DNA of 64,000 nt from positions 62,001 through 126,000 of the forward strand of contig NZ_JAQBIE010000007.1 of assembly GCF_028294535.1 (NCBI RefSeq). The letters run 5' to 3'. The stretch's first letter is position 1, and each line of letters begins with the position of its first letter. This document shows, piece after piece, positions 1 through 15,023 of the stretch. The DNA comes from Paracoccus onchidii (lineage in GTDB: Bacteria > Pseudomonadota > Alphaproteobacteria > Rhodobacterales > Rhodobacteraceae). Made by a program: the position numbers and the translations under genes. Under the pieces are notes generated by a model, which was not told the origin of the DNA, ran no database searches, and saw only the letters and a list, made by a program, of their open reading frames with translations.

Positions 1-894
1 AACTATCAGATCATCGCCTCTCTGGATGTCGGGCGGCGTCAGGTGGAGCTGGAAGGATATGAATTCGTCCAGCGTCAGATTGAAAGCGCAATGTCACTGC
101 GTCGCGCCGTCACCACCCATCCGCTGCTGTCGAAATACTTCAAGGTGCTGACCTTGGCGGACATGATTCCGTCGCAATACCGCGAAAGTGGGGTCGAGGC
201 CTATTACGATGCCCGGCGTGGCTGGACCGATACCTGGGATTACTGGGCGACGGATGAATTCGTTCTTGATCCGACCAAGGTCACGATCACCGTCGGTGGC
301 ACCGGCTGGGATGGAGATACGTTCAAGACCAAGATCCTAATGGACAAGCACGGGATTCAGATCAACAAGACCTCGCGCAATACCGTGCTGTTCATGACCA
401 ATATCGGCACGACGCGATCTTCGATTGCCTATCTGATCGAGGTGTTGATCAGCATCGCCAAGGATCTGGAGGATTTGTTGGATGACGCCTCCAAGATGGA
501 GCGGCGGGCCTTTGATGCGCGCGTGAAAAGCCTTGTCGAACAGGTGCCGCCGCTGCCCGATTTCAGCCGGTTCCACGCGGCGTTCCGTCAGGGTGGCACG
601 TCGGAAGGGGATATCCGCAGTGCGTTCTTCCTGTCGTATAACGAAGATAACTGCGACTACCTGGATCTTGATCAGGCCCTGCGCGAAAAGCTGGAGGCAG
701 GCGAAGAACTGGTTTCGGCCTCGTTCATCATTCCATATCCCCCCGGATTCCCGATTCTGGTGCCCGGTCAGGTCATCAGCCGTGAAATCCTGACCTTCAT
801 GCGGGCCTTGGATGTCAGCGAAATCCACGGCTATCGCCCCGATCTGGGGTTGCGGGTGTTTACGGCCGCGGCGTTGCAGTCGATGGCCGAATAG
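1..894 (+). CDS. Orn/Lys/Arg decarboxylase, C-terminal part (5' end outside window)
   Basis: The reading frame is open from base 1, so the gene starts upstream; 297 residues are visible. The protein resembles the C-terminal half of fold-type I PLP amino-acid decarboxylases (the biodegradative Arg/Lys/Orn class): the stretch KTSRNTVLFMTNIGTTRSS is typical of the wing after the PLP domain, and the end carries IPYPPGFPILVPGQ followed by EIHGY, hallmarks of the C-terminal domain. The PLP lysine region is not in the window. Such enzymes turn arginine, lysine or ornithine into agmatine, cadaverine or putrescine in the cytoplasm; the substrate cannot be told from this part. It faces an XRE-cupin regulator and lies near an aminotransferase, amidase, ligase and Ntn-hydrolase, which suggests a shared amine pathway. 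The family call is firm; the specificity is open. Confidence 0.88.
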   Translation, partial: NYQIIASLDVGRRQVELEGYEFVQRQIESAMSLRRAVTTHPLLSKYFKVLTLADMIPSQYRESGVEAYYDARRGWTDTWDYWATDEFVLDPTKVTITVGGTGWDGDTFKTKILMDKHGIQINKTSRNTVLFMTNIGTTRSSIAYLIEVLISIAKDLEDLLDDASKMERRAFDARVKSLVEQVPPLPDFSRFHAAFRQGGTSEGDIRSAFFLSYNEDNCDYLDLDQALREKLEAGEELVSASFIIPYPPGFPILVPGQVISREILTFMRALDVSEIHGYRPDLGLRVFTAAALQSMAE

Positions 895-911
895 CCGAAC
901 GCTCGGTTCGG
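895..911. terminator. Short hairpin between convergent genes
   Basis: CCGAAC (895-900) and GTTCGG (906-911) form a 6-bp stem with a 5-base loop directly after the decarboxylase stop and 13 bases from the stop of the opposing regulator. No T-run follows, so it may be a weak bidirectional terminator or an mRNA 3'-end hairpin. Confidence 0.4.
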
Positions 912-924
912 GCAATGCGTGGCG

Positions 925-1506
925 TCAAAAGGTCGGCGGCGTGCAGGCGCTGACCACGACACAACGCTTGGTGCCCGTGTTGCGAAAACGATGGGGGCGG
1001 CGGCTGTCAAAGATATAGGCGTCGCCCGGTCCCAGCACTTCGATCTCGTCGCCGACGGTGATTTCGATTTCGCCTTCCAGCACGATTCCGGCTTCTTCGG
1101 ATTCATGGCTATAGAGGGTGGGGCCGGTATCGGCGCCCGGATCATAGGTTTCGTGCAGCAGCATCAGGTTGTTCTGACCCGCGCGCCCGATCCGCAACAG
1201 CGACAGTTTGGCGCCGGTGGCCTCGGGGCCATGAACGGCGGCGGAACGGATCGATGGCAATTCAGTGCTGCGCCAGAAGGTCTTGGGTTCTTCGCTGTCT
1301 TCGACGAAGAACTCGACCATGCTGGTGGTCAGACCGTCCAGGATCTTTTTCAGATTCGCGACCGAGGGGCTGATCTTGTTCTGTTCGATCATGGATATCA
1401 GCCCGTTGGTCACGCCGGCCCGTGCGGCCAATTGGCGTTGCGACAGCTTTTTCAGCTGACGCAGCTTGCGCAGCCGGGTTCCAATATCGAAATCGTCTTC
1501 GTTCAT
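925..1506 (-). CDS. XRE-family transcriptional regulator with C-terminal cupin domain (PuuR-like)
   Basis: The 193-residue protein has an N-terminal helix-turn-helix (about residues 10-65, with LSQRQLAARAGVTNGLISMI as the HTH core) and a C-terminal cupin barrel (about 110-188, containing YSHESEEAGIVLEGEIE and GDAYIFDSRRPHRF). This is the architecture of PuuR and related regulators, which sense polyamines or other small ligands through the cupin. It is transcribed divergently from the aminotransferase gene; their 128-bp gap holds a promoter and a pair of GATCAC repeats that are good operator candidates. Its likely job is ligand-controlled repression of the aminotransferase and perhaps the neighbouring amine genes. 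The ligand is inferred from neighbours only. Confidence 0.88.
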   Translation of the reverse strand: MNEDDFDIGTRLRKLRQLKKLSQRQLAARAGVTNGLISMIEQNKISPSVANLKKILDGLTTSMVEFFVEDSEEPKTFWRSTELPSIRSAAVHGPEATGAKLSLLRIGRAGQNNLMLLHETYDPGADTGPTLYSHESEEAGIVLEGEIEITVGDEIEVLGPGDAYIFDSRRPHRFRNTGTKRCVVVSACTPPTF

Positions 1507-1579
1507 GCCTGCTCGCTTCGTTCGTTGTTCGCTGCCCCGGCAAAAATAGGCCGATCATATGTCGGTCATTCAAGGCATC

Positions 1580-1616
1580 TTGTCACTAAGATCACTTTGG
1601 TTAATATATTGATCAC
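1580..1616 (+). promoter_or_regulatory. Promoter and candidate operator for the aminotransferase gene
   Basis: TTGTCA (1580-1585) and TAATAT (1602-1607), 16 bp apart, form a good sigma-70-type promoter 28 bases before the ATG at 1635. Two GATCAC copies at 1590-1595 and 1611-1616 lie 21 bp apart (two helical turns) and flank the -10 box, the position expected for an XRE repressor site. The site assignment is inference. Confidence 0.5.
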
Positions 1617-1634
1617 AGTTTGAGGACATATGCC

Positions 1635-2930
1635 ATGACCAATGCAGAACTTTCCGCCCGCCGCGCAAGTGCGATCTCGCGCGGGGTGGGTGTGTCGACG
1701 CCCCTGTTCGCGACCCGTGCCAAGAATGCCGAGTTGTGGGACAGCGAAGGCAACCGTTTCATAGATTTCGCCGCCGGTATCGCGGTGGTGAATACCGGCC
1801 ACGGCCACCCGCGTCTGGTCGAGGCCGTCAAGGCCCAGATCGATCATTTCAGCCATACCTGCCATCAGGTTGCGCCATATGAAAACTATGTCGAACTGGC
1901 AGAGCGCCTGAATGCCGCCGCGCCCGGCGATTTCGCGAAGAAGACCTTGTTCGCCACCACCGGCGCCGAAGCGGTCGAGAACGCCATCAAGATCGCGCGC
2001 GCCCATACCGGCCGCCAGGCCGTGATCGCCTTTTCGGGCGGTTTCCACGGGCGGACCTTCATGGGCATGGCGCTGACCGGCAAGGTTCAGCCCTACAAGG
2101 CGGGTTTCGGTGCTCTGCCTGCCGATGTGTTCCATGTTCCGTTCCCGACCGAAGCGCATGGCATTTCGTCGGCGGATTCGCTGGCGGCGATCCAGAACCT
2201 GTTCAAGGCCGATGTCGATCCCGCGCGGGTTGCCGCGATCATTTTCGAACCGGTCCAGGGCGAGGGCGGCTTTTATCCTGCCCCGGCCGAGCTGGTGAGA
2301 GGGTTGCGCGAGATTTGCGATCAGCATGGCATTCTGTTGATTGCCGACGAGGTGCAGACCGGGTTTGCACGGACGGGCAAGCTGTTTGCGATGGATCACT
2401 ATGATGTTGCCCCGGACCTGATGACCATGGCGAAAAGCCTTGCCGGGGGCTATCCGCTGTCCGCGGTCGTGGGGCGCGCCGAAGTGATGGATGCGCCGCA
2501 GCCCGGCGGTTTGGGCGGCACCTATGGCGGCAGTCCGCTGGGAATTGCGGCTGCTCTGGCGGTTCTGGACGTGATTGCCGGCGAAGGACTGTGCGATCGC
2601 GCGCAGGCGCTTGGCGATCAATTGAAATCGCGCCTGACGGGGTTGCAGAACGAAGTGCCCGAGATGGCAGATATCCGTGGTCCGGGTTTCATGGTCGCGG
2701 CAGAGTTCATTGACGCCGATGGCACCCCAATGCCAGAGTTGACCGCCGCGGTGCGCGACGAGGCGTTGAAGCGCGGGTTGATCCTGTTGACTTGCGGCGT
2801 CTACGGCAACGTCATCCGCTTTCTGTCGCCCATCACGATCGAGGACGAGGTTTTTGCCGAATCCCTCGATATCCTGACCGAGTCTTTGCGCGTGGCGCGC
2901 GAATCCGTCGTGGGCACCCGCGCCGCCTGA
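1635..2930 (+). CDS. gabT: 4-aminobutyrate-type class III aminotransferase
   Basis: The 431-residue protein matches GABA aminotransferases (GabT/PuuE) over its full length. It moves an omega-amino group (from GABA or a related omega-amine) to 2-oxoglutarate using PLP. Visible are TTGAEAVENAIKIARAHTGR, the FEPVQGEGGF stretch, the cofactor-binding DEVQTGFART and the Schiff-base lysine K267 in MAKSLAGGYPL. The ATG at 1635 is chosen because TGAGGA lies 8 bases upstream; a TTG at 1620 is in frame but overlaps that ribosome site. A PuuR-like regulator is divergent. The class is certain; the natural amine donor is not, and other omega-amino acids are possible. Confidence 0.92.
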   Translation: MTNAELSARRASAISRGVGVSTPLFATRAKNAELWDSEGNRFIDFAAGIAVVNTGHGHPRLVEAVKAQIDHFSHTCHQVAPYENYVELAERLNAAAPGDFAKKTLFATTGAEAVENAIKIARAHTGRQAVIAFSGGFHGRTFMGMALTGKVQPYKAGFGALPADVFHVPFPTEAHGISSADSLAAIQNLFKADVDPARVAAIIFEPVQGEGGFYPAPAELVRGLREICDQHGILLIADEVQTGFARTGKLFAMDHYDVAPDLMTMAKSLAGGYPLSAVVGRAEVMDAPQPGGLGGTYGGSPLGIAAALAVLDVIAGEGLCDRAQALGDQLKSRLTGLQNEVPEMADIRGPGFMVAAEFIDADGTPMPELTAAVRDEALKRGLILLTCGVYGNVIRFLSPITIEDEVFAESLDILTESLRVARESVVGTRAA

Positions 2931-2938
2931 TTATCGAT

Positions 2939-2969
2939 CCCGCCCGTGCCGGGAACGGTATCGGGCGGG
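2939..2969 (+). terminator. GC-rich hairpin after the aminotransferase gene
   Basis: CCCGCCCG (2939-2946) pairs with CGGGCGGG (2962-2969), 9 bases after the stop codon. The loop is 15 bases and no T-run follows. It is a likely transcription end or attenuation structure before the nitrilase gene. The rest of the 227-bp gap to 3157 holds only a promoter candidate. Confidence 0.45.
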
Positions 2970-3063
2970 TATCGGCGCATGACAGGAGACTGAACGGCCG
3001 ATCTGTTTTGCCCGAAATTCAGGCAGATACCGCCCGGCGCTGCCTTGGACGTCGGGTTGCGCA

Positions 3064-3093
3064 TTGTAAACCGGGCAGCGCGCAACACATAAT
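3064..3093 (+). promoter_or_regulatory. Candidate promoter for the nitrilase-family gene
   Basis: TTGTAA (3064-3069) and CATAAT (3088-3093), spacing 18 bp, lie 64 bases before the ATG at 3158 and after the upstream hairpin. This suggests the nitrilase gene has its own promoter. Confidence 0.35.
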
Positions 3094-3157
3094 TATCAAG
3101 ATTTGGTCGTGCGCGGCGGGAGTGCCGCGGGCGAAATTGCAGGAGAATTGATTAAGA

Positions 3158-4156
3158 ATGACCCCCTTTGCGATTGCAGGCATACAGATGCATGTTTCGG
3201 CGCTGCAGTCGAATGTCGAAGCCATGTTGCAGCGCGTCGATATTCTGATGGCGCGCTTTCCCTGGACGCAGATGGCGCTTTTCAGCGAATTGGCGCCCTA
3301 TGGCCCCCTGAACAAATTTGCCCAGCCATTTCCCAACACGGCGCTTGAGCAGTTTCAGGACAAGGCCCGCCAGCACCGGATCTGGCTTATACCCGGCTCG
3401 ATGTTCGAACAGGCTGAAGACGGGCGGATTTTCAACACCTCTGTGGTGATCGATCCCGACGGGCAGATTGTCGCCAAATACTCCAAGATGTTCCCTTTCC
3501 GCCCCTATGAAGAGGGTATCGCTGCGGGAACCGAGTTCTGCGTGTTCGACGTACCCGAAGTGGGGCGGTTCGGGTTGTCGATCTGCTATGATATCTGGTT
3601 CCCGGAAACGACCCGTCAATTGACCAGCCAGGGTGTCGAGGTGTTGTTGCATCCGGTCCTGACCGGAACCACCGACCGGGATGCCGAACTGGCCATCGCG
3701 CGCGCAACGGCCGCGCAATTCCAGTGCTATGTCTTTGACGTCAATGGGCTAAGCGCGGGGGGCGTTGGACGGTCCCTGGTCGTTGATCCTTCTGCGACCG
3801 TGCTGCACCAATCCGGCGGTCAGGAAGACATCTTTCCGATCGAGGTCGATCTGGATCAGGTGCGCAGGCAGCGGGAAACCGGCATGAAAGGGCTTGGCCA
3901 GGTTCTGAAAAGCTTTCGTGATCGCAGCGTCGATTTCTCGGTCTATGATCGCAGCAGCGGCACCGACAGCTATCTGCAAAGGCTGGGTCCATTGCAGACG
4001 CCGGGGCAAGGTTCGGTGGCCGGGCTGCATGGCGCGGATCCGCGCAGCATGTTGGCCACGCCCGCAACCAGCGCAGTGCCCGGACCGGCCTTCGCGCCAT
4101 CGCAGCCGGCAATCGCGCCCGAGCTGCCGCTCAAGGTTGCCAATAGCGGCGAATGA
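3158..4156 (+). CDS. Carbon-nitrogen hydrolase (nitrilase superfamily amidase)
   Basis: This 332-residue protein is a nitrilase-superfamily C-N hydrolase. The catalytic triad is visible: Glu44 in LFSELAPYG, Lys110 in KYSKMFPFRPYEEG and Cys143 in SICYDIWFPE. Such enzymes hydrolyse amides or carbamoyl-amines through a thioester on the cysteine; relatives include N-carbamoylputrescine amidohydrolase and omega-amidase. The last 60 or so residues are rich in Pro, Ala and Ser and lie outside the catalytic fold. The start is backed by AGGAG about 13 bases upstream. The gene sits between a GABA-type aminotransferase and an ATP-grasp ligase, so an amide intermediate of the same pathway is a likely substrate. 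Family sure, substrate unknown. Confidence 0.85.
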   Translation: MTPFAIAGIQMHVSALQSNVEAMLQRVDILMARFPWTQMALFSELAPYGPLNKFAQPFPNTALEQFQDKARQHRIWLIPGSMFEQAEDGRIFNTSVVIDPDGQIVAKYSKMFPFRPYEEGIAAGTEFCVFDVPEVGRFGLSICYDIWFPETTRQLTSQGVEVLLHPVLTGTTDRDAELAIARATAAQFQCYVFDVNGLSAGGVGRSLVVDPSATVLHQSGGQEDIFPIEVDLDQVRRQRETGMKGLGQVLKSFRDRSVDFSVYDRSSGTDSYLQRLGPLQTPGQGSVAGLHGADPRSMLATPATSAVPGPAFAPSQPAIAPELPLKVANSGE

Positions 4157-4164
4157 ACGTCCGA

Positions 4165-4200
4165 AACACCCGTCTCCGCAAGCCGGTGGCGGGTGTTCTT
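4165..4200 (+). terminator. Rho-independent-like terminator
   Basis: AACACCCG (4165-4172) pairs with CGGGTGTT (4190-4197), followed by CTTTC. It lies 9 bases after the nitrilase stop. The remaining bases to 4322 hold a second short GC hairpin (4231-4244) and no gene. Confidence 0.5.
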
Positions 4201-4322
4201 TCATGATCAGAGCTTCCGATGACGCTGCCCGCCCGCCAGCGGGCTTGTGAGAAGCGCCCGGCTGTGCAAGCGTCATGGTAGCGACAATAAAAGATGTTGA
4301 CCTGCAACAGGGGGAACGGCAC

Positions 4323-5774
4323 ATGCCGAAGAAGACGCTGAAGAACATCTCGGAGATCCGGCGCTATTTCCACACCAATACCGACCCGGTCTATTTCGTC
4401 TCGGCCACGAATTTCAATTTGCTGGGCATCGACGAATGGGTGAAGAACTTCAAGTATATCTGCTATATGGACTGTTTTGACGGGCGGCATCCGAACGTAT
4501 TCGTTCCCTCCGAAGTCCCGCATGATGAGTTCCAGTCCATCGAGGATATCAACAACTATCTTCTTCAGCACAAGGAAGTCATCGATCTGGTCAAGCGCCG
4601 GGGTGGCAAGCCGAAATTCGTGTTCCTGATGTTTGATGAAAAGACAGAAATGCTGGTCAAGGAACTGGGCGGCGAGATCTGGTTCCCAAAGGCGAAGCTG
4701 CGTGAACGTTGCGACAACAAGATCGAAACCGTGCGTATCGGCAACAAGGCGGGTGTGCCGTCGGTGCCCAACACGCTGTCCGTCGTCAAGGACTATGCCG
4801 ACCTGAAAAAGATCTGCGCCAAGGCGGGACTGGGCAATGACCTCGTGCTGCAATCCGCCTTTGGCGATAGCGGCCACACCACGTTCTTCATCAAATCCGA
4901 GGCCGATTTCCGCAAGCATGAACACGAGATCGTCGGTCAGGGCGAGATCAAGATCATGAAGCGGATCAGTTGTCGCGGATCGGCAATCGAAGCTTGCGTC
5001 ACCCAGCAGGGCACGATTGTGGGGCCGTTGATGACCGAACTGGTCGGTTTCAAGGAACTGACCCCCTATCGTGGCGGCTGGTGTGGCAATGAAATCTTTG
5101 CGACCTCGTTCAAGCCGTCGGTGCGCCAGCAGGCCCGCGACCTGACCTTCAAATTCGGTGAGCAGCTGCGCAAGGAAGGGTATCGTGGCTATTTCGAACT
5201 GGATTTCCTGATCGACAAGAAGACGGGCGATCTGTGGCTGGGTGAGTTGAATCCGCGTATCACCGGCGCAAGCTCGATGACGAACCATGCGGCTTTCGCC
5301 CATGCGGATGCGCCGCTGTTCCTGTTCCACTTGCTGGCGTTTTCGAAAAAACCGTTCGAGCTGGACGTGGCCGAGCTGAATGCAAGATGGGCTGATCCCG
5401 ACATGATCGACAGCTGGTCGCAGATGGTGATCAAACACACCGAGGACAATGTCGACATGATCACCCATGCGCCGCAAAGCGGGATCTACAAGATGCTTGA
5501 CGATGGACGGGTGGTTTTTGACCGGTTCGATTACCACCGCCGCGCGGTCGAATCCGAGAACGAGGCCTTTTTCCTGCGGATCTCGGGTGCCGGGGACTAT
5601 CGCTATGAAGGTGCCGATCTGGGTATTCTGGTGACGCGCGGCAGGTCGATGACGGCCGGATTCAAATTGACCGAGCGGGCCCAGAAATGGATCCACGGTA
5701 TCAAGAACGCTTATGTCGCCGAACCGCTGCCCGCCGCGCAAGCCATGGAACCGCCGGCGTTCAAACTCATGTAA
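4323..5774 (+). CDS. ATP-grasp domain ligase (biotin-carboxylase-like)
   Basis: The 483-residue protein has the ATP-grasp fold: an N-terminal domain with NFNLLGIDEWV, a lysine-rich nucleotide-binding middle (about 130-220, KLRERCDNKIETVRIG and LQSAFGDSGHTTFF) and the metal/ATP site with Asp294 (FELDFL) and Glu308 in GELNPRITGASSM. ATP-grasp enzymes activate a carboxylate as acyl phosphate and join it to an amine or thiol. The product is unknown. The ATG at 4323 follows AGGGGG with suitable spacing; an in-frame ATG at 4275 lacks one. The C45 gene follows after 8 bases, so the two are co-transcribed, which pairs a ligase with an amide-cleaving or acyl-transferring enzyme. No carrier-protein gene is seen nearby, so a true biotin carboxylase role is unlikely. 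Confidence 0.8.
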   Translation: MPKKTLKNISEIRRYFHTNTDPVYFVSATNFNLLGIDEWVKNFKYICYMDCFDGRHPNVFVPSEVPHDEFQSIEDINNYLLQHKEVIDLVKRRGGKPKFVFLMFDEKTEMLVKELGGEIWFPKAKLRERCDNKIETVRIGNKAGVPSVPNTLSVVKDYADLKKICAKAGLGNDLVLQSAFGDSGHTTFFIKSEADFRKHEHEIVGQGEIKIMKRISCRGSAIEACVTQQGTIVGPLMTELVGFKELTPYRGGWCGNEIFATSFKPSVRQQARDLTFKFGEQLRKEGYRGYFELDFLIDKKTGDLWLGELNPRITGASSMTNHAAFAHADAPLFLFHLLAFSKKPFELDVAELNARWADPDMIDSWSQMVIKHTEDNVDMITHAPQSGIYKMLDDGRVVFDRFDYHRRAVESENEAFFLRISGAGDYRYEGADLGILVTRGRSMTAGFKLTERAQKWIHGIKNAYVAEPLPAAQAMEPPAFKLM

Positions 5775-5782
5775 AGCGCAAG

Positions 5783-6799
5783 ATGTCGTTGCTTTTCAAG
5801 GCTGTCAGCGAAGAACAGCCCGGTCCGATCTGGGCCGGGTTGTTTGACCTGTATTGGCCATCTTATCGCAAATGGTGGGCCAGCGAAGGGTTTTCAGGCC
5901 GCCCAACCTATCGCGAATGCCGACTGGCGCTGACGCAGCACATGCCCGAGATCCTGCCGCTTTACGACCGGCTTTGCGATCTGGCAGGCGGTGGCGACAG
6001 CGCCGCCCGCTTTCTCAGCTTTTATTGTCCGCCGCGTTATCTGTCGGGCTGCAGTCAGGCGATCTGGCAGGGCGACAAGCCTCTTTTGGTGCGCAATTAC
6101 GATTACAGCCCAAAGGCCTTCGATGCGATCCTGATGCACACGGCGTGGCAGGGCCGGCGCGTCATCGGGATGAGCGACGGGATGTTCGGGCTGATTGACG
6201 GGATGAACGATGCCGGGTTGGCATTGTCGCTGACATTTGGCGGGCGTCGCGATGTCGGCGAGGGTTTCGGAATTCCGCTGATCCTGCGCTATATCCTGCA
6301 AACCTGCGAAACGCTGGACGACGCGGCTGCAGTGCTGCGTCGCGTGCCCTGCCACATGAGCTATAACGTCACGGTCCTCGACGCCCAGAGGCGGTATTTC
6401 ACCGCATATCTGACGCCCGACCGACCCACGGTCATTTCACAGGTTCCGGTTGCCACCAACCATCAGGAACGCGTCGAATGGCCCGGACATGCCCGGTTTA
6501 CCGCAACCGTCGAACGCCAGCGTTTCCTGTTGAACCGGCTGACCCTGCATCCCGAAACGCAGGATCGTTTCATCAGCATGTTCCTGCGTCCGCCCCTGTA
6601 TTCGACGGCGTTTTCGATGGGGTTCGGCACCCTGTATACGGCGGCCTACATGCCCGCGGATGGTGCAATGCAGGTCTGGTGGCCCCATCACGTCTGGCGG
6701 CACAGCTTTGACAATTTCGAGGTCGGTTCCCAGATCGTGCTGCTTCCCGATGACGCGAACGCAGCCCCGCATGTCAAGGTGCCGGAGTCCGGTCATTGA
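5783..6799 (+). CDS. C45 family autoproteolytic acyltransferase/hydrolase (Ntn-hydrolase)
   Basis: The 338-residue protein resembles the acyl-CoA:6-APA acyltransferase (C45) family of Ntn-hydrolases, which cut themselves before a cysteine that then acts as nucleophile. The predicted cut is Gly89|Cys90 in RYLSGCSQAIWQ, followed by the family-typical LLVRNYDYSP and later GLIDGMNDAGLALSLTFGG. Family members hydrolyse or transfer acyl groups on amides. The ATG at 5783 is 8 bases after the ATP-grasp stop; a longer frame from 5687 would overlap that gene and is not favoured. Its 3' end overlaps cobF by 7 bp, convergently. Family likely, substrate unknown; its partner genes point to an acylated amine or amino acid. 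Confidence 0.8.
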   Translation: MSLLFKAVSEEQPGPIWAGLFDLYWPSYRKWWASEGFSGRPTYRECRLALTQHMPEILPLYDRLCDLAGGGDSAARFLSFYCPPRYLSGCSQAIWQGDKPLLVRNYDYSPKAFDAILMHTAWQGRRVIGMSDGMFGLIDGMNDAGLALSLTFGGRRDVGEGFGIPLILRYILQTCETLDDAAAVLRRVPCHMSYNVTVLDAQRRYFTAYLTPDRPTVISQVPVATNHQERVEWPGHARFTATVERQRFLLNRLTLHPETQDRFISMFLRPPLYSTAFSMGFGTLYTAAYMPADGAMQVWWPHHVWRHSFDNFEVGSQIVLLPDDANAAPHVKVPESGH

Positions 6800-7542
6800 C
6801 GCCGCAGCAGATAGACATCCATGATCCAGCCATGCGCGGCGCGGGCCTTTGCACGGGTTTCGGCGATTTGCGGTCCGATCCGGTCCAGCGGGCCGCTTAG
6901 CAAGACCTGTTCCGGCATGCCCAGGAATGCGCCCCACCATATATGCACCCTGTCAGGGGGCAGGGTCAGAAATGCATTGCCGCCGTCCAGCATCACGACC
7001 GCCGTGTTGGTTTGCGCGGGCCAGCCCTGATCGCGCAGGTCGCGACCGGTGGTGATGTGAACCGGCTCGCCGATCGTGTTCAGCGTTATGGCATGGGCGG
7101 CGCACAGTGCCTGAATGGCGGTGATTCCGGGAATCACCTGCCTGCGTATCGACAGTTTCGACTCCAGCCGGTCGGCGATACGCAGGCTGCTGTCATATAG
7201 AGAAGGATCCCCCCAGATCAGAAAGACGACTTTGCCGCCCCGGGGCAGATTGGCGCGGATCTGGTCGTGCCAGCACGTGGCGATGGCGTCGTGCCAATCG
7301 TCGACAGCCTTGCGATAACTGTCAGTGCCGGTATCGCGGCGGGGCAGGGGAAAGGCGGCGATCTTGCAGGATGGCAACGCATATGCGCGGCACATGGCCT
7401 GCCGAAGATCTGCGAGATCCTGTTTTTCTGCGCCTTTCAGCGGAATCAGGATCAGGTCGGCGGCTTGAATCGCGTCGATGGCCTGCAGGGACAGATGCCG
7501 GGGGTTGCCGGTGCCGATGCCGACCAGGCTCAGTTCGATCAT
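6793..7542 (-). CDS. cobF: Precorrin-6A synthase (deacetylating)
   Basis: CobF (249 residues) methylates precorrin-5 at C1 with loss of the acetyl group in the aerobic cobalamin pathway. It belongs to the SAM-dependent tetrapyrrole methylase family: the N-terminus IELSLVGIGTGNPRHLSLQA holds the glycine-rich SAM loop, and LIWGDPSLYDSSLRI and VIPGITAIQALCA are the second and third family motifs. CobF is typical of the aerobic route only. It lies 56 bp downstream of cbiM and is probably read from the same riboswitch-controlled transcript. Confidence 0.93.
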   Translation of the reverse strand: MIELSLVGIGTGNPRHLSLQAIDAIQAADLILIPLKGAEKQDLADLRQAMCRAYALPSCKIAAFPLPRRDTGTDSYRKAVDDWHDAIATCWHDQIRANLPRGGKVVFLIWGDPSLYDSSLRIADRLESKLSIRRQVIPGITAIQALCAAHAITLNTIGEPVHITTGRDLRDQGWPAQTNTAVVMLDGGNAFLTLPPDRVHIWWGAFLGMPEQVLLSGPLDRIGPQIAETRAKARAAHGWIMDVYLLRRQ

Positions 7543-7598
7543 GCAGACCTCTTTGTTGGGGTGCGCGGGATCAATGCCCCGCGCCGATACCGCGTTGC

Positions 7599-8264
7599 TC
7601 AGGCGAACAGACGCGGCGTGACAAGAGCGCTGCCTTGCAGGGCGCGCATGGATTTTGCTGCGGCCAGAACGGCCAAGTCTATCAGCGGCTCGATCAGAAT
7701 CACGGCCATATAAGCAATCCCGAACGTCGCCACGCCGCCGATGCCTGCGATGCCCTGACCGAAGATGGCCCAGAATGCCACCCAGGCAACAACACCGCCC
7801 TGATAGGCCGTGGACAGCGCCAGCGCCTGTCCGTAACGCAGATCAACATAGGCCGTGCCGGGCGCGATGATCCGGTTCGCCAGGGCCGACAGGCCGAAAA
7901 GCGGGACCAGAAGCGTTGTGACGTTCATGCCGTATTGCGCAAGATCGAAGGGCGCAAACAACACCCCTTGCGCCAGCAGCCCAAGTGCCAGGCCAATCGC
8001 GGCAGGCGCAGCGCCAAACAGCAGAAACAAGGTTGAGCCAAGAATGAAATGAACTTCCGAAACGCCCACCGGGAAATGGGGCAATATTTCGAAGAAGCAG
8101 AACACCAAAGCGGTGGTCAGCACGCTGCGCAATGCCAGCGATGTCCAGCCCTTTTCCTGTGCGCTCTGGAAGGCCAGCCGCAATCCATAGGCGCCGGCGG
8201 CCGCTGCCGTTCCATAGCTGAGCGCCAGTTTTGCGCCGGTGACGATTCCGGGTTCGATATGCAT
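7599..8264 (-). CDS. cbiM: CbiM-family cobalt transport protein (ECF-type permease component)
   Basis: The 221-residue membrane protein begins MHIEPG, the conserved CbiM N-terminus in which His2 and the amino terminus bind Co(II). Further His residues lie in FEILPHFPVGVSEVHFILG. About six hydrophobic segments are visible. CbiM is the substrate-capturing part of the energy-coupling-factor cobalt importer. No cbiN, cbiQ or cbiO follows here, so the energising parts are either elsewhere or not needed. AAAAGGAG precedes the start and is next to a riboswitch hairpin (see the regulatory entry). Role and regulation both point to cobalt uptake for B12 synthesis. Confidence 0.85.
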   Translation of the reverse strand: MHIEPGIVTGAKLALSYGTAAAAGAYGLRLAFQSAQEKGWTSLALRSVLTTALVFCFFEILPHFPVGVSEVHFILGSTLFLLFGAAPAAIGLALGLLAQGVLFAPFDLAQYGMNVTTLLVPLFGLSALANRIIAPGTAYVDLRYGQALALSTAYQGGVVAWVAFWAIFGQGIAGIGGVATFGIAYMAVILIEPLIDLAVLAAAKSMRALQGSALVTPRLFA

Positions 8265-8309
8265 GTCAGTCTCCTTTTGCCGTCACACCCGACGGCTGTT
8301 GGTTATGGG

Positions 8310-8510
8310 CTGACGGCCGGTCTCCTGGCTTGCGGGTCAAGGTGTGGCTTCGGCCTTCCCGGTCCCGAAAGGGGCCAGTGGCTTGGGTGAAGCACACTCT
8401 CCGCATACAGTCGCGGGGGCGGCTGGGGCTTTGGGTGCCGCGATTTGGTCCACCCTTCCCCATTCCCGATGAAGCCCGACGCTTTGCGTCCATGCGGGCA
8501 CCGATCAGGC
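8310..8510 (-). promoter_or_regulatory. Cobalamin riboswitch upstream of cbiM-cobF
   Basis: Read on the minus strand the region shows the conserved cobalamin-aptamer blocks in order: GGGAATGGGGAAGGG-like 5' part, CAGCCGCCCCCGCGAC, GCCACTGG, GGGAAGG and the B12 box AGCCAGGAGACCGGCC near the 3' end (8316-8331). Between the B12 box and the cbiM ATG, a 6-bp hairpin (GCCGTC/GACGGC, 8279-8296) abuts the ribosome site AAAAGGAG, while the same GCCGTC also occurs at the aptamer 3' end (8312-8317). This offers two exclusive pairings and suggests control of translation start. High B12 should shut off cbiM and cobF. Confidence 0.9.
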
Positions 8511-8515
8511 CCTTA

Positions 8516-8544
8516 GCTAAATGGCATCGCAGCTTGCGGGTCAA
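8516..8544 (-). promoter_or_regulatory. Candidate promoter for the cbiM-cobF riboswitch transcript
   Basis: On the minus strand TTGACC (8539-8544) and TTTAGC (8516-8521) are 17 bp apart, just upstream of the aptamer. The -35 box overlaps the cobB stop codon. The -10 match is weak. Confidence 0.4.
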
Positions 8545-9887
8545 GCGTTCCCGTGCCGGGAGATAAGATGAAAGAAGGTTCCCGATACCCGTCCACCACC
8601 GGGCAAGACGTGGTATGAACCGGTTTCCGGCACGGCATTGGCATTGGCATCGCTGACCTGTGCCAGCGGGGCATCGGGTTGCGACAGGATCGATGCATAA
8701 TGGAATTCATGCCCGCGCAGGGTCTGCCCTGCTGGCAAACCGGGCATCGGGGCCAGTAGCCGGGTCACACGATAGCCCAGATGCATCCGCCGTTTCTGAT
8801 AGCTGGTCTCCAGCCCCAGCAACCCGACCATGCGGTGACGCTGACCATCGGCATCGATCAGGCCCGCCCCCAGCGTCATGTAGCCGCCGCATTCGCCATG
8901 CACGGCGCGCGTCCGGGCAAACCGGGTCAAACCATCGCGAAAGCCGTTGGCCTCTGCGATCTTTCCGGCGTGCAGTTCCGGATAGCCGCCCGGCAACCAG
9001 CAGCAATCGGCACTGTCATCGGGGGCCTGATCGTCCAGCGGTGAAAACGGCAGGATTTCCGCGCCCTGACTGCGCCATTCTTCGATCAGATGCGGATATA
9101 CAAAGCTGAAGGCCGCATCACGGGCCAGGGCAATGCGCTGCCCTGGCGGTGGCGCCGGTCGGTATTGCGGCGTCGGTGCCGCCACCCTGGCTGCCGCGCA
9201 GGCCATGATGGCATCAATATCACAATGCTCGTCAACGAACTGCGATGCGTGATCCAGAATGGCGCGAAGATGGGGGGTTTCTTCGGCCTGAACCAGACCG
9301 AGATGGCGCTCGGGCAGTTCGATATTCCCCCGTCGGGGCAGCGCGCCCAGCACCGCGATACCGGCGCGCGCCATGCCTTCACGGATCAGGGCCTCGTGGC
9401 GGGGCGAGGCAACGCGGTTCAGGACCACGCCGGCAAACGGCATCTCGGGCATGAATGTCGCGAACCCCTGGGCGATGGCCGCTGCGGATTGTGCCTGACC
9501 CGACACATCCAGAACCAGCAATACCGGCCATCCGGTCATGGCCGCGATTTCCGCGCTTGCGCCGATGCCGACCTCGCCCGGCGTCGCCACGCCGTCAAAC
9601 AGCCCCATTGACCCTTCGGCCAGCACCATGTCTGCCGGATCGCGCCCTTGCAGATGCGCGCCGATCTGGGCCGCCCCCATCGCCCAACTGTCAAGATTGA
9701 ACGATGGCCGTCCCGAAGCCGCCAGATGAAAGGCCGGATCGATATAGTCCGGCCCCGATTTGAAGGGCTGCACCCGGATCCCGCGTTTGCGCAGCGCCCC
9801 AAGAAGGCCCAGCATCAGCATCGTCTTGCCGGTGCCCGAAGAGGGGGCCGAAATCATCAGGCCCGGGGTCAGTTCTGTCTGGGTCAT
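8541..9887 (-). CDS. cobB: Hydrogenobyrinic acid a,c-diamide synthase
   Basis: CobB/CbiA (448 residues) amidates the a and c side chains of hydrogenobyrinic acid with glutamine and ATP. The N-terminal ATPase domain carries the P-loop-like [18 protein letters not shown] and [13 protein letters not shown]; the C-terminal type I glutamine amidotransferase domain has its nucleophile Cys in [17 protein letters not shown]. It is the last gene of the cobL-cobE-cobM-cobB block, overlapping cobM by ATGA (9884-9887). The next gene downstream, cbiM, has its own riboswitch. Confidence 0.95.
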
Positions 9888-10657
9888 TCGGGAAACCTTG
9901 GTTCGGGGCCGACAGGCCGGTAGCGGCGGTCATAATCGGCTGCATAGAGCCGGCTGTCGTGAAAATCGCGGGCCGATAATGCCGGTCCGACCAAGATCAG
10001 TGCGGTGCGGTCGAAATGGCCGGCGCGATCGGCGATATTGGCAAGGGTTGCACGAACGATTTCCTGATCAGGCCAGCTGGCCCGCCAGACAATGGCGGCC
10101 GGGCAATCGGCACCATAGAACGGCGTCAGCTGTTGGGCGATATCCTTCAGTCCGTGGATCGACAGATGAATCGCCAAGGTCGCGCCGGTGCGGGCAAAAT
10201 TGCTCAGGGTCTCGGCCTCGGGCATGCCCGAGGCGCGCCCGGGCGTGCGCGTCAGCACCACCGACTGCGCCAGCCCCGGCAAGGTCAGCTCTGACCCAAG
10301 CGCGGCGGCGGCGGCCGCAAAGGCCGGAACACCGGGCGTCACGTCAAAGGGGATGTGCAACCGTTTCAGTCGACGAAGCTGTTCCCCCATTGCCGACCAA
10401 ACCGAAACATCCCCCGAATGCAACCGGGCCACATCCTGTCCCGCGGCATGGGCGCGCGCCATTTCGTCGATGATCTGGTCCAGCGACAAGGGCGCGGTAT
10501 TGATGACGCGGGCATCGGCAGGGCAATGGCTCAGCAATTCCGGGGGCACCAGACTGCCGGCATAGAGGCAGACCGGGCAGGCCGCGATCAGGTCGCGCCC
10601 CCGCAAGGTGATCAGATCGGCCGCGCCGGGACCGGCGCCGATGAAGTGAATGGTCAT
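9884..10657 (-). CDS. cobM: Precorrin-4 C11-methyltransferase
   Basis: CobM (257 residues) adds the C11 methyl group to precorrin-4. The SAM-binding loop [18 protein letters not shown], the [12 protein letters not shown] segment and [12 protein letters not shown] and [13 protein letters not shown] motifs are those of CobM/CbiF. It overlaps cobE upstream (10654-10657) and cobB downstream by ATGA, so the three are translationally coupled. Confidence 0.95.
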
Positions 10658-11001
10658 GATTGTTCGGGTCTTTCTGCAATGGCTGCCGTGGCGGTGCCGC
10701 AGGCGCTGATGACGCGCGACACCACGATCACGCCATCCTTGCCGCAGGCGGCCAGGGCGGCTGCCTCGGCGACAGAACCTGTGCGATACAGCCGCTGGAT
10801 GCGTGGTGATTGCGTAGGGGTTGATATTTCGGCGATTTCGACCAGCAGCAGGGGCAGGTTCAGGGCCTGCAACTCTGCCTTGCGGGCGGGAATTGTCGCG
10901 ATGGCCTGCACGGGGCCGGATTGCAGCAATGCGCGCAGCAACGCATCCCGCAGCGCGGCAGGTGGCGCGGCCTTGCGGCAGCCGATTCCGGCGATCCTCA
11001 T
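10654..11001 (-). CDS. cobE: Cobalamin biosynthesis protein CobE (CbiG C-terminal-like)
   Basis: The 115-residue protein matches the C-terminal domain of CbiG, called CobE in aerobic pathways. It starts [13 protein letters not shown] and includes [20 protein letters not shown], both family-typical. Its exact role in the pathway is not settled; it may help at the ring-contraction or lactone stage. The ATG at 11001 overlaps the cobL stop as ATGA; a frame five residues longer lacks this coupling. Confidence 0.87.
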
Positions 11002-12188
11002 CTGGTCACGCTCCATTGCGTGATCGGGCGGGCGGATTGCCAGCCACGGCCTTGGCCAAGGGGGGTCGCGTGTGAAAGCTGAATCCGCATCAGGTCACCG
11101 CCATATTCGGCATGGCGGGCGGTTAGCAGGCCGTCGGTTTCAAGCGTGACGGCATTGCAGACCAGCCTCGCACCCCGGGGCAGCAAAGCCCATATCCGGT
11201 CCAGAAGCGCCGCCGAAGCCCCCCCGCCGACGAACGCGGCGTCGGGTTCGGGCAGGCCATCCAGTGCCGCCGGTGCGTGGCCCTCGATCCCGGTGACGCG
11301 GTGCGATACACCGAAATCGGCGCAATTGCGTTTGATATTGGCCATCCGTTCGCGAAGGGGTTCGATACAGATCGCACGCCCCCCCGCCAGCGCCCATTCG
11401 ACGCTGATCGCACCCGAGCCGCCACCGATATCCCACAACAATTCACCGCGCCGCGGTGCCAGCGCCGCCAGAGTCATCGCGCGGATCGGCGCGCGCGAGA
11501 TCTGGCCGTCATGCGTGAACCCGGAATCGGGGCGACCGGGCGCGGCGGAAAGGCCCGCCCGGCGGGTCAGCTTGTTGCCATGCAGGGCAACGGCCACCGG
11601 TGCCGAGATACCGCCAAGATCGAAATCTTTTGCGCGACTCCACCGGATACGCTCTTCGGGGCCACCCAGGCGTTCCAATACCGCGATGTCCATGTCCCCA
11701 AGGCCCCTTGCGCTCAGCCAGGCTGCCAATTGCGCGGGGGCGTTCGGGTCTCGTATCGTGGCGATGATCTTGCAATGCCGCGACAGATAGGGGCGCAGTT
11801 GCGCGAACTCTGCCGCGTGCAGCCCAAGGCAGGGCGTGGCTTCCAGACGCCAGCCCAACCGCGCAGCGGCCAGTGAGAAACATCCCGCGACCGGCATGGC
11901 GCGCCATTCCGCAGGATCAAGATGGGTGGCCAATGTGCCCCCGACGCCGAACCAGAATGGATCGCCTGATGCCAGTACCGCCACGGGGGCAGGTTTGCAG
12001 GCCAGCAATTCAGAGATGTCAAAGGGCACCGGCCAGGCACGGCCCCGCGCCCCGACCCCGGCAAGGGCAAGGTGGCGCGACCCGCCAAAGACGATCCGCG
12101 CCTCTTGCAGTGCCAGGCGACTTGCATCCGACAGCCCGTCTGCCCCATCTTCGCCGATACCGATCAATGTCAGCCAGGGCCTAGTCAT
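10998..12188 (-). CDS. cobL: Precorrin-6Y C5,15-methyltransferase (decarboxylating)
   Basis: CobL (396 residues) is a fused CobL: the N-terminal CbiE-like tetrapyrrole methylase ([19 protein letters not shown]) and the C-terminal CbiT-like SAM methyltransferase ([20 protein letters not shown], then [17 protein letters not shown]). It methylates precorrin-6B at C5 and C15 and removes the C12 acetate carboxyl. The ATG at 12186-12188 is favoured by AAAGGA 7 bases upstream. That ATG lies in the palindrome CATG, whose other strand is the cobK start codon, so the two genes begin in the same four bases. cobL has no intergenic promoter: it must be read from inside cobK or from transcription antisense through cobK. 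Confidence 0.94.
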
Positions 12189-12939
12189 GACGCGCATCCT
12201 TTTGCTGGGGGGCACCACCGAAGCCAGCCATTTGGCGCGGCTGCTGGCGGATGCCGGTATTGACGCGATCTTTTCCTATGCCGGCCGCACCCATGTTCCG
12301 CGCACCCAACCGCTGCAGCAGCGGATCGGTGGGTTTGGCGGGGCAGATGGTCTGGCCGCCTATATCGGGCAGCACGGGATCAGCCATGTGGTTGACGCGA
12401 CCCATCCCTTCGCGGCCAATATCAGCCTGAACGCGATACGGGCCTGCACGGAACGCGCAACGCCGTTGTTGGCCCTGCAACGCCCGCCGTGGCAGGCCGA
12501 AGCGCAGGACAAATGGCTGAATGTCGCGGATTACAGGGGCGCTGCGGCGGCTTTGCCCGATGGAGGGGCGCGGGTGTTTCTTGCTATCGGACGGCAGAAT
12601 CTGGACCCGTTTGCCGAAAAGGCGAACCGTTACCTGTTGCGTCTGGTGGACAGACCCGAACATGAACTGCCGTTGGCAGACGCGCATGCCGTGATCGCGC
12701 GCGGACCATTTTCCGTTGACGATGATCTTGCGCTGATGGCCCGGTTTCGTGTCACGCATCTGGTGGCCAAGAACGCCGGGGGAATGGCGGCGCGGGCCAA
12801 GCTGCTTGCGGCGCGCCGCCTTGCCGTGCCGGTGGTGATGATCGAACGCCCCCGCATGCCGCAGCGCCAGATCGTGGACAGGGCCGAAGAAGTGCTGGAC
12901 TGGCTGCATCACCCGGCCTCGGCGCGGCGCGGGGTATAG
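12187..12939 (+). CDS. cobK: Precorrin-6A reductase
   Basis: CobK (250 residues) reduces precorrin-6A to precorrin-6B with NADPH. Typical parts are ILLLGGTTEASHLARLLADA, VVDATHPFAANISLNA, the FLAIGRQNLDPF stretch and VAKNAGGMAARAKLLAAR. It is the only plus-strand gene between cobB and cobW. Its ATG at 12187 shares CATG with the opposing cobL start, and its 3' end overlaps the cobJ 3' end by 31 bp. AGGG lies about 8 bases before the start, inside cobL. Its promoter would have to lie within cobL. Confidence 0.94.
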   Translation: MTRILLLGGTTEASHLARLLADAGIDAIFSYAGRTHVPRTQPLQQRIGGFGGADGLAAYIGQHGISHVVDATHPFAANISLNAIRACTERATPLLALQRPPWQAEAQDKWLNVADYRGAAAALPDGGARVFLAIGRQNLDPFAEKANRYLLRLVDRPEHELPLADAHAVIARGPFSVDDDLALMARFRVTHLVAKNAGGMAARAKLLAARRLAVPVVMIERPRMPQRQIVDRAEEVLDWLHHPASARRGV

Positions 12940-14389: not shown

Positions 14390-14393
14390 TGCC

Positions 14394-15023
14394 CTATTCC
14401 TTCCGGCTTGCCAATGCGTTGACGGCCGCAACCGTCATGGCGGATCCGCCCAGCCGGCCCTCGACAATCATCGAAGGAACGGGCGGTGCGCTGATCAGTG
14501 CCAGCTTGGATTCCGCCGCGCCGATAAAGCCGACCGGACAGCCGATAATCGCGGCCGGACGCGGACAGTCCGGGGATTCCAGCATGTTCAGCAGGTGAAA
14601 CAGGGCGGTGGGTGCATTGCCGATGGCGACCACGGCCCCCCCAAGATGGGGACGCCACAATTCAAGCGCCGCAGCAGACCGCGTGTTGCCGATTCTGGCT
14701 GCGATTTCGGGCACCGCAGGATCATGCAACATGCAGAGAACCCGGTTGTCGGCGGGCAGCCGGGCGCGCGTGACGCCTTCGCTGACCATGCGTGCGTCAC
14801 ACAGCACCGGCGCACCCGCCAGCAGCGCCTTGCGTGCCGCAATGGCCATGTCGGGGCTAAAGCGGATATGATGTTCCAATCCGATCATGCCCGCTGCGTG
14901 GATCATGCGCACCGCGACAATTTCTTCATCGGGGCCAAAGCGGGACAGATCGGCCTCGGCCCGAATGGTCGCGAATGAGCGGCGATAGATTTCCGCACCG
15001 TCCGTTTCATAGATATGTGGCAT
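14394..15023 (-). CDS. cobH: Precorrin-8X methylmutase
   Basis: CobH (209 residues) moves the methyl group from C11 to C12 of precorrin-8X, giving hydrogenobyrinic acid. The catalytic histidine is in VRMIHAAGMIGLEHHIRF; VLCDARMVSEGV and the end PAAIIGCPVGFIGAAESK are family hallmarks. Its start codon overlaps the cobG stop as TAATG. Confidence 0.95.
   Translation of the reverse strand: MPHIYETDGAEIYRRSFATIRAEADLSRFGPDEEIVAVRMIHAAGMIGLEHHIRFSPDMAIAARKALLAGAPVLCDARMVSEGVTRARLPADNRVLCMLHDPAVPEIAARIGNTRSAAALELWRPHLGGAVVAIGNAPTALFHLLNMLESPDCPRPAAIIGCPVGFIGAAESKLALISAPPVPSMIVEGRLGGSAMTVAAVNALASRKE

Follow-up and report, generated by a model that had tools for sequence, protein, structure and literature searches.

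A recurrent module of nitrilase, decarboxylase, ATP-grasp ligase and C45 hydrolase with a possible role in the breakdown of arginine-derived amino acids

Why would a bacterium keep an ATP-grasp ligase and a putative self-cleaving amidase next to a GABA transaminase? The question is raised by the first genes of a 64,000-nucleotide stretch of Paracoccus onchidii DNA (the window), for which a first-pass annotation had suggested an acyl-protected amine pathway. Our data support the co-occurrence of the genes and place enzymes of arginine, ornithine and GABA metabolism among their neighbors; the cap chemistry, by contrast, is a proposal from sequence, and the cap may be set on a diamino acid before decarboxylation.

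A conserved core of four genes

All six genes named in the first-pass annotation are present and real (Table 1). The decarboxylase gene starts about 1.9 kb outside the window (full reading frame, L002:8120-10894) and has a match within its own genome (G000:C7:60186-62894). The LIG frame opens at 4275 and the C45 frame spans 5687-6799; homologs favor starts at 4323 and 5783, respectively.

Table 1. Genes at the left end of the window, with positions within it
Gene	Positions	Strand	Assignment
DC	1..894	+	3' part of a 924-aa PLP fold-I amino-acid decarboxylase; OKR_DC_1
REG	925..1506	-	XRE HTH plus cupin regulator, PuuR-like; companion
AT	1635..2930	+	GABA:2-oxoglutarate transaminase; companion
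NIT	3158..4156	+	nitrilase-superfamily amidase/ureidase, CN_hydrolase; core
LIG	4323..5774	+	candidate ATP-grasp carboxylate-amine ligase; core
C45	5783..6799	+	predicted autoproteolytic Ntn amidase/acyltransferase; core

Among the best 80 of 323 LIG loci, which are the nearest relatives and, judged by title, chiefly Rhodobacterales, C45 accompanies LIG in 80/80, DC in 79/80 and NIT in 75/80; the five NIT-less loci lie on contigs that stop upstream of LIG, short of the usual place of NIT. No DC was found within the 21-kb locus of Paracoccus marinaquae (L006). Evenly drawn genomes of the window's class carry LIG in 11 of 385 cases, with C45 and DC each at nine of the 11 loci and NIT at seven, and in the class of genome G070 there are 11 LIG loci in 10 of 369 genomes (C45, 11/11; DC, 8/11; NIT, 7/11). 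LIG reached at least 510 bits in 9 of the 299 genomes of a phylum sample, whose loci besides the window (L101-L108, overlapping our other samples) have both DC and C45 in 8/8 and NIT in 6/8. The analysis also took in eight of the 32 plasmid records that match LIG; NIT is missing from three rhizobial plasmid copies. The genes appear as NIT-DC-LIG-C45, as NIT-LIG-C45-DC or divergently, with LIG identity down to about 40 to 44% among loci of differing order. The same association turns up in other classes with the genes in a different order, which is more than chance would explain. Exceptions are G612, where LIG (46% identity) has only a class-III aminotransferase beside it, and G476, where a short LIG frame and C45 occur with neither DC nor NIT.

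The conserved core is thus NIT, DC, LIG and C45. Ligase and C45 stand together at nearly all loci and the decarboxylase at most, so that the co-occurrence on which the first-pass annotation hinged holds. Its six-gene unit contracts to this core, with the regulator and aminotransferase as companions in about 40% of loci (REG in 33 and gabT in 34 of the same best 80), and the decarboxylase, although it does lie at the window edge, is part of the core. REG has HTH and Cupin_2 domains and PuuR as its best NCBIfam match, with a score (136.1 bits) below the model's cut-off of 211. AT scores as a GABA transaminase, exceeding the cut-offs of both PRK07495 (770.1 versus 724) and TIGR00700 (598.1 versus 506.65).

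Residues and folds of the core proteins

LIG passes the cut-off of NF005096/PRK06524, named "biotin carboxylase" (763.8 versus 684 bits). It had no Pfam match in a profile search and nothing specific in a search of solved-structure sequences. Its AlphaFold2 model (pLDDT, 82.2), built from 20 of 27 alignment rows with seven plasmid-record rows left out, falls in the biotin-carboxylase/PurK/PylC fold class, in agreement with the earlier statement that the ligase is not glutamine-synthetase-like. In biotin carboxylases, the Q-V-E segment that follows the E-x-N-x-R motif is catalytic. LIG has T-G-A there (positions 330-332), the QVE segment is absent when LIG ELNPRITGASSMT is aligned with pyruvate carboxylase EVNPRIQVEHTVT, and none of 27 rows has a Glu at position 332. 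The family name is very probably wrong, and we rejected LIG as a biotin carboxylase on the loss of QVE. That LIG should be a genuine biotin carboxylase in an accidental neighborhood is hardly credible: annotation and fold would fit, but, besides the lost segment, no carboxyltransferase or biotin-carrier partner gene was seen by eye near LIG, and C45 is its constant companion in the best 80 of 323 loci.

The part of DC in the window matches OKR_DC_1 (32.9 bits; cut-off, 27) and OKR_DC_1_C (25.4; cut-off, 24.2). K426, D513, W516 and K589, the PLP lysine and catalytic core, are each found in 17/17 aligned rows, and the CHKS, DEAW and STHK motifs align with those of arginine and lysine decarboxylases. 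One position departs from this pattern. PMC5607190 postulates Glu526 of LdcI as a substrate binder, a role based on docking and not on mutation. Glu occupies this position in the three chains compared, one of an arginine and two of lysine decarboxylases, whereas all 17 DC rows have Asn (Asn749), and so the DC substrate may be a side-chain-capped amino acid. As Rv2531c of Mycobacterium tuberculosis also has Asn, the residue may instead be a feature of the whole long decarboxylase family. The label "basic amino-acid decarboxylase" is therefore unproven, since no Glu stands at the proposed substrate-binding position in this family. The text consulted in PMC8503589 deals with shorter decarboxylases, of types called "ancestral" and "extended", and "Rv2531" is absent from it; that of PMC8983666 gives no residue-level substrate information.

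NIT belongs to PF00795 (107.1 bits). The nitrilase triad named in the first-pass annotation, E44, K110 and C143, is borne out and, with a second Glu (E118), is invariant in 23/23 aligned relatives. The best NCBIfam match, N-carbamoylputrescine amidase (AguB), lies far below its equivalog cut-off (70.4 versus 410.25 bits), and deaminated-glutathione amidase scores nearly as high (69.9; cut-off, 355). In Price et al. 2022 (PMC9007349), the citrullinase CtlX belongs to another family, PF02274, and was dropped as a lead for NIT; the same paper places the Francisella citrullinase in PF00795, which makes a citrulline-ureidase role of NIT possible.

C45 matches NF040521 (185.5 bits; cut-off, 85) and PF03417. 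The Cys of the predicted cleavage site is found in 27/27 aligned rows and the preceding Gly in 26/27, and read from the ATG at 5783 the site is S88-G89-C90, in line with the Gly89|Cys90 of the first-pass annotation. Its model (pLDDT, 92.2; 22 of 27 rows, five plasmid-record rows left out) has 2x1c, the isopenicillin N acyltransferase fold, as its top Foldseek match (TM, 0.70); a search of solved-structure sequences gave nothing specific. Profile, residues and model assign C45 to the autoproteolytic acyltransferase/hydrolase family, with cleavage predicted at G89|C90.

A tentative route from ornithine to GABA and its alternatives

Many neighboring genes, among them those for transporters, aldehyde dehydrogenases and regulators, were identified by eye; scores are given where a profile was used. 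At L125, Shinella L100 and L112, DC is replaced by a set of racemase, dehydrogenase, decarboxylase and ureohydrolase genes. L125 and L100 encode an ornithine-racemase-like (Orr-like) protein (400.7 and 393.3 bits; cut-off, 480), a 5-guanidino-2-oxopentanoate decarboxylase (769.9 and 737; cut-off, 500) and a TIGR01230 agmatinase (208.2 and 212.3; cut-off, 174.3); both also have a D-amino-acid dehydrogenase (in L125, 447.3; cut-off, 383), the L100 racemase includes an arginase-family stretch, and L112 has the same annotated layout. These replacements link the module to arginine/ornithine and GABA. L124 has gabT, an apparent aldehyde dehydrogenase gene and an agmatinase-family gene over its cut-off. 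The idea of an amine-linked locus thus gains from its neighbors, while the amine pathway itself is putative. One copy (L102) lies within a cluster for ectoine degradation (DoeA, 653.7/613; DoeB, 491.3/402.7); a different diamino acid may therefore be the acceptor, or the link may be looser. By look, L103:4372-5451 is acetylpolyamine-amidohydrolase-like; a family scan at 1e-40 returned nothing.

We tentatively favor, at somewhat less than an even chance, a catabolic role for NIT, DC, LIG and C45, in which an arginine-derived diamino acid, most likely ornithine, is converted to GABA under a temporary side-chain acyl cap. LIG would use ATP to attach a carboxylate, for which the gamma-carboxyl of glutamate is a candidate, to the omega-amine of ornithine, and DC would decarboxylate the resulting capped amino acid, giving a mono-acyl diamine, a job that in some bacteria a racemase, a D-amino-acid dehydrogenase and a 2-oxo-acid decarboxylase could do instead. 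The free end would then be oxidized by an aminotransferase or oxidase and an aldehyde dehydrogenase, the cap keeping the amino-aldehyde or amino-oxo-acid from cyclizing, after which C45 would hydrolyze the amide to GABA and the acyl group, and GabT and succinate-semialdehyde dehydrogenase would complete the breakdown. NIT might supply ornithine, like a citrulline ureidase, or repair deaminated cap by-products, like an omega-amidase. The stricter form, in which LIG caps free ornithine (or, e.g., 2,4-diaminobutyrate), the long Asn-type decarboxylase takes only the capped form and C45 uncaps it to GABA, is rather doubtful. Running against a cap, the racemase-type cluster could lead from arginine through 2-ketoarginine and 4-guanidinobutyrate to GABA without LIG or C45.

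Closest to the original idea is the reverse order, in which DC makes putrescine (or agmatine/cadaverine), LIG acylates the diamine like PuuA, an aminotransferase/aldehyde dehydrogenase pair oxidizes it and C45 acts as PuuD. The family and intact core of DC suit this order, as do gabT and the PuuR-like regulator in about 40% of the best 80 of 323 loci, but the invariant Asn at the postulated substrate-binding position does not, and L125, L100 and L112 keep LIG and C45 in clusters with no recognized diamine-forming enzyme. A GATase/GS-like/DAO cluster apart from this locus could, moreover, take care of putrescine in the window genome; the locus may thus be something other than a plain Puu replacement, and we regard this order as unlikely. 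Were DC to make N-carbamoylputrescine from citrulline, NIT would be the N-carbamoylputrescine amidase that its best match names, LIG and C45 would act on putrescine in the Puu manner, and the neutral citrulline side chain would fit Asn749 of a decarboxylase without the acidic residue. The low and nearly tied NIT score speaks against this, as does the distribution of NIT, which is kept in the DC-less L125, L100, L111 and L112 and missing from the DC-bearing L105, L106, L128, L129 and L131; this citrulline route is very unlikely.

A biosynthetic module, in which C45 would act as an acyltransferase and an amine and an amino acid would be combined into a small amide (signal, osmolyte or natural product), is distinctly unlikely but a little less so. 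Isopenicillin N acyltransferase, whose fold C45 matches, is one of the true acyltransferases in the C45 family, and a rhizobial plasmid copy adjoins nif genes, making a symbiosis product conceivable. Yet most of the neighbors that were recognized have catabolic roles (gabT, D-amino-acid dehydrogenase, ureohydrolase, DoeA/DoeB), the transporters are of uptake type (TAXI-TRAP in L115, oligopeptide/dipeptide ABC in L113), and by eye no carrier-protein or assembly-line gene lies beside the core, save an ACP/AsnB block near the Shinella copy.

The module recurs in several classes of Pseudomonadota, in settings as different as roseobacters, a rhizobial nif plasmid and an ectoine cluster. We found no paper on it in one open-access library (subscription journals and preprints fall outside that scope), and the literature searched assigns no reaction to the PRK06524 ligase, the window-type C45 group or the long Rv2531c-type decarboxylase. 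With its reaction solved, the name "biotin carboxylase" could be corrected, a pathway for the nitrogen of arginine/ornithine would be explained, and a substrate class would be suggested for the decarboxylase family, whose structures are already solved. If capping does precede decarboxylation, that class would extend to the long family including Rv2531c, and the misnamed PRK06524 family would gain a function.

Comparison with known systems

Rv2531c, a "probable amino acid decarboxylase" (9n0n/9n0o/9n0p), is a full-length homolog of DC and, as 9n0n, its closest solved chain (834 bits), sharing the Asn in place of LdcI Glu526; PMC12910592 describes its activity as unknown. PylC, the ATP-grasp ligase of pyrrolysine biosynthesis, joins a carboxylate to the omega-amine of lysine. 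It has the overall fold of LIG (4ffr, Z 22.5; 4ffl, Z 22.1) at 8% identity, as one row amid biotin carboxylases, and since many of these and PurK reach equal Z scores, no specific kinship with PylC is shown. C45 resembles isopenicillin N acyltransferase and other C45/choloylglycine-type Ntn enzymes in fold and Gly-Cys site, although identity to the former is about 15% and self-cleavage of C45 is predicted only; isopenicillin N acyltransferase can cleave an alpha-aminoadipyl amide, a homolog of a gamma-glutamyl amide.

The enzyme types that replace DC are those of the arginine/2-ketoarginine route, which is not known to need an ATP-grasp ligase, C45 or nitrilase. In the CATCH-N scheme of arginine use in Sinorhizobium meliloti, OdcA and OdcB act on ornithine or 5-amino-2-oxopentanoate, and the main text of PMC7268258 mentions neither "biotin carboxylase" nor "acyltransferase".

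An ordinary Puu locus was rejected, as ligase and hydrolase belong to other families: PuuA is glutamine-synthetase-like and LIG an ATP-grasp protein, PuuD a C26 class-I amidotransferase-like enzyme and the window hydrolase PF03417/C45. A decarboxylase and a nitrilase in the core are likewise foreign to Puu, and no DAO-type oxidase or aldehyde dehydrogenase was recognized by eye beside the window genes. The echo of Puu noted at the outset survives in the GABA transaminase, perhaps in the PuuR-like regulator and, if our reading is right, in a shared logic of ATP-dependent amine capping, oxidation, deamidation and GABA transamination.

Genes of the locus and conservation of the module

The long PLP-dependent decarboxylase (DC), the ATP-grasp ligase candidate (LIG; NF005096/PRK06524), the C45 Ntn amidase/acyltransferase (C45) and the nitrilase-superfamily enzyme (NIT) form a module that is real and conserved. 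All six genes named in the first-pass annotation, namely, these four and their companions gabT (GABA transaminase) and the PuuR-like XRE-cupin regulator, are present where it placed them. A genome search with the DC family alignment matched this DC gene only. With the most likely start codons of LIG and C45 (see the table), 8 bases separate the LIG stop from the C45 start, and the predicted C45 self-cleavage site falls at G89|C90, in agreement with the first-pass annotation, which also placed the nitrilase residues E44, K110 and C143 of NIT correctly. Among the matches listed, the nearest named relatives of LIG are from Paracoccus (91 to 92% identity). By eye, neither a DAO-type oxidase nor an aldehyde dehydrogenase could be recognized next to the window genes.

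Coordinates of features in the window and in the fetched loci (L numbers; L002 is the window's own locus, extended upstream)
Feature	Location	Strand	Observation
DC, full gene	L002:8120-10894		924 aa; the window starts within it
FAD-protein-like ORF	L002:4329-7274	minus	Large ORF, upstream
LIG, most likely start	window 4323
C45, most likely start	window 5783
Regulator-gabT gap	window 1507-1634		GATCAC occurs twice within a short A+T-rich stretch; possible operator (by eye)
ORF run	window 6793-14431	minus	Resembles cobalamin (corrin ring) biosynthesis enzymes (by eye only)
G+C-rich segment	window 48001-56000		G+C up at 0.67-0.68 and GC skew strongly positive (0.20-0.23) relative to most of the window
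Paracoccus marinaquae locus	L006:5908-7295		DC gone; regulator, gabT, NIT, LIG and C45 kept
Rhizobium leguminosarum plasmid	L098:552-12477		DC-LIG-C45 adjoins nifHDKEN; ABC transporter and amidase come after
Rhizobium leguminosarum plasmid p3	L099:5165-10742		Broken-looking copy; DC matches split over two ORFs; C45 a short fragment, then IS30 transposase
Racemase, Shinella plasmid	L100:11785-13572		Orr-like, 595 aa; arginase-family stretch at residues 415-564, 45.7 bits (cut-off 22)
Module in ectoine-degradation cluster	L102 (G086:C78:87001-107000), 2242-14943		All four genes; Lrp-like gene, DoeB (491.3 bits, cut-off 402.7) and DoeA (653.7 bits, cut-off 613) on one side, aldehyde dehydrogenase and class-III aminotransferase genes on the other
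Divergent NIT-less copies	L105:9217-12735; L131:699-6778; L132		DC-LIG-C45, LIG identity about 39-44%; L132 begins within LIG; proteins resembling outer-membrane beta-barrels come next (by eye)
Second C45-like ORF	L124:13087-14391		41% identity; after the module, beside a small ribbon-helix-helix-like ORF

One genome per species was scanned, which yielded 323 loci with a LIG relative; in the best 80 of these, tblastn found C45 in 80/80, DC (queried with its C-terminal part) in 79/80 and NIT in 75/80; at the five loci lacking NIT, the contig stops before its usual place. The conserved co-occurrence of ligase, C45 and decarboxylase on which the first-pass annotation had staked its reading is thus upheld, while its wider grouping of six families holds for DC, NIT, LIG and C45 but not for gabT-like genes (at least 50% identity; 34 of the same 80 loci) or the regulator (33 of 80). 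The commonest order in this set is NIT-DC-LIG-C45 on one strand, and Paracoccus loci mostly read DC, regulator (minus strand), gabT, NIT, LIG, C45. The P. marinaquae locus alone among the 80 lacks DC, with flanks otherwise like those of the window. Upstream, three ORF families recur in 30, 30 and 28 of 81 clustered loci and were taken on inspection for a TAXI-TRAP receptor, a TRAP permease and a universal stress protein, respectively; the TAXI family was verified by profile in one additional locus, L115. LIG is carried by 7 of the 101 genomes of the window's genus, one of which (G1089) has two LIG genes, on contigs C89 and C126, the second scoring 624 bits versus 948 for the first.

Since the 80 loci are nearest relatives, evenly drawn genomes were sampled as well. 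In the window's class, LIG occurs in 11/385 genomes, and its loci (L002, L107 and L115 to L123) hold C45 in 9/11, DC in 9/11 and NIT in 7/11; contig ends fall inside or beside the module in three (L116, L117 and L121). The exceptions are G612, where LIG (46% identity) is adjoined by a class-III aminotransferase only, and G476, with a 217-aa LIG frame and C45 without DC or NIT. A second class, probably Gammaproteobacteria in the broad sense (that of genome G070), yielded 11 LIG loci in 10/369 genomes (L103, L104 and L124 to L132), with C45 in all 11, DC in 8 and NIT in 7. In a sample of the phylum, 9/299 genomes have a LIG match of at least 510 bits, 6 of them above the family cut-off, and the eight loci besides the window (L101 to L108, partly overlapping the other samples) all hold DC and C45, with NIT in six. 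LIG matches were also found in 32 plasmid records, and the eight examined (L098 to L100 and L109 to L113) carry C45 in 8/8, a fragment in L099, and DC and NIT in 5/8 each. Other gene orders include NIT-LIG-C45-DC and divergent layouts, with LIG identity to the window down to about 40%. The gene set is mostly kept while the order varies, as a shared pathway would predict. The NIT-less copies at L105, L131 and L132 possibly represent the same enzymes in a different use, and the copy beside nifHDKEN has a possible link to symbiosis.

Enzymes of the module

LIG has no Pfam match and scores above the NF005096/PRK06524 cut-off. Its AlphaFold2 model (mean pLDDT 82.2) matches biotin carboxylases, PurK and PylC with similar Z scores. 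Its segment EVNPRIQVEHTVT aligns with ELNPRITGASSMT of a pyruvate carboxylase, and none of 27 rows has Glu at LIG position 332, which makes a biotin carboxylase very improbable; LIG is most naturally read as a carboxylate-amine ligase. The C45 model (pLDDT 92.2) has the isopenicillin N acyltransferase precursor as its best fold match (TM 0.70), followed by N-acylethanolamine acid amidase and acid ceramidase. In NIT the nitrilase residues are intact; its top profile matches, N-carbamoylputrescine amidase (70.4) and deaminated-glutathione amidase (69.9), are both far under cut-off.

Over its full length, DC is homologous to Rv2531c (834 bits), whose activity is described as unclarified in a 2026 review (PMC12910592). 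DC retains its PLP lysine along with other core residues. The Glu in "VEK" of the chains compared, one arginine and two lysine decarboxylases, is replaced by Asn in "INK" of DC and Rv2531c, and Asn749 of DC is invariant (17/17 rows). Counted on the alignment, this Glu falls at residue 526 in the chain of the inducible lysine decarboxylase, and Glu526 has been postulated to bind substrate (PMC5607190).

Neighbouring genes and a proposed capped route to GABA

Three loci without DC carry an alternative gene set around NIT, LIG and C45: a Shinella zoogloeoides plasmid (L100), a plasmid labelled Roseateles in a record flagged unverified, with the same layout (L112), and a locus of genome G943 (L125). 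The set comprises an amino-acid permease, an agmatinase-family ureohydrolase, a 5-guanidino-2-oxopentanoate decarboxylase family enzyme, an aldehyde dehydrogenase, a D-amino-acid dehydrogenase and a racemase. Profiles were scanned in L125 and L100, where the oxopentanoate decarboxylase family matches at 769.9 and 737 bits (cut-off 500). At 1e-30 the racemase matches a single NCBIfam model, ornithine racemase Orr, and does not reach its cut-off of 480 (400.7 and 393.3 bits). The permease and the aldehyde dehydrogenase of these two loci were assigned by eye or annotation, and the L112 genes by annotation only. On Cupriavidus necator pBB1 (L111), also DC-less, NIT-LIG-C45 has close by a gene resembling D-amino-acid dehydrogenase, which at 158.4 bits misses the cut-off of 383, with amino-acid ABC transporter genes nearby by look. 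L124 combines gabT with a gene that looks like an aldehyde dehydrogenase and an opposite-strand ureohydrolase above the TIGR01230 cut-off. Taken together, these neighbours indicate that arginine or ornithine feeds the module and that GABA is its outlet. The window genome holds three arginase-family and four ornithine-cyclodeaminase-family genes, so ornithine can probably be made and used there in other ways too. The ectoine context of L102 is not easily fitted to this reading. Ectoine degradation leads to 2,4-diaminobutyrate, a shorter relative of ornithine, and the module may therefore serve diamino acids more widely.

With moderate confidence, we infer that the module converts an arginine-derived diamino acid into GABA by a capped route that consumes ATP; our confidence in the exact step order and the acyl group is low. 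We propose that LIG would act on the amino acid, ahead of decarboxylation, as this is the simplest scheme to accommodate clusters with DC as well as those with the racemase. 5-Amino-2-oxopentanoate and 4-aminobutanal cyclise, which capping of the side-chain amine would prevent. A capped side chain would also account for a DC pocket without the acidic residue, although the Asn may characterise the decarboxylase family more widely. Such a cap would require a final amidase, a role to which C45 appears suited. A weak point of the scheme is that the racemase-type cluster could in principle break down arginine without LIG and C45. Were DC instead to act first, yielding a diamine, and LIG then to cap putrescine, the DC-less clusters would make no substrate, barring a decarboxylase elsewhere in those genomes, and we consider this order unlikely. 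A biosynthetic role for the module is quite unlikely, and a variant of the route by way of citrulline more doubtful still. Our search of one open-access library found no description of the four-gene module.

Relation to the gamma-glutamylputrescine pathway

The gene types had first suggested the logic of the gamma-glutamylputrescine (Puu) pathway, a known capped-amine route. The window genome has a second cluster, on contig C18 (L133), whose products are a GATase protein with a further match to Peptidase_C26, a glutamine-synthetase-like protein and a DAO oxidoreductase. NCBIfam Puu models gave no match to this cluster at 1e-60, the sole threshold used; the bacterium may have its ordinary capped-amine route here. 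The likeness between the module and Puu stands in outline, but by the tests made, the module is not a member of the Puu pathway.
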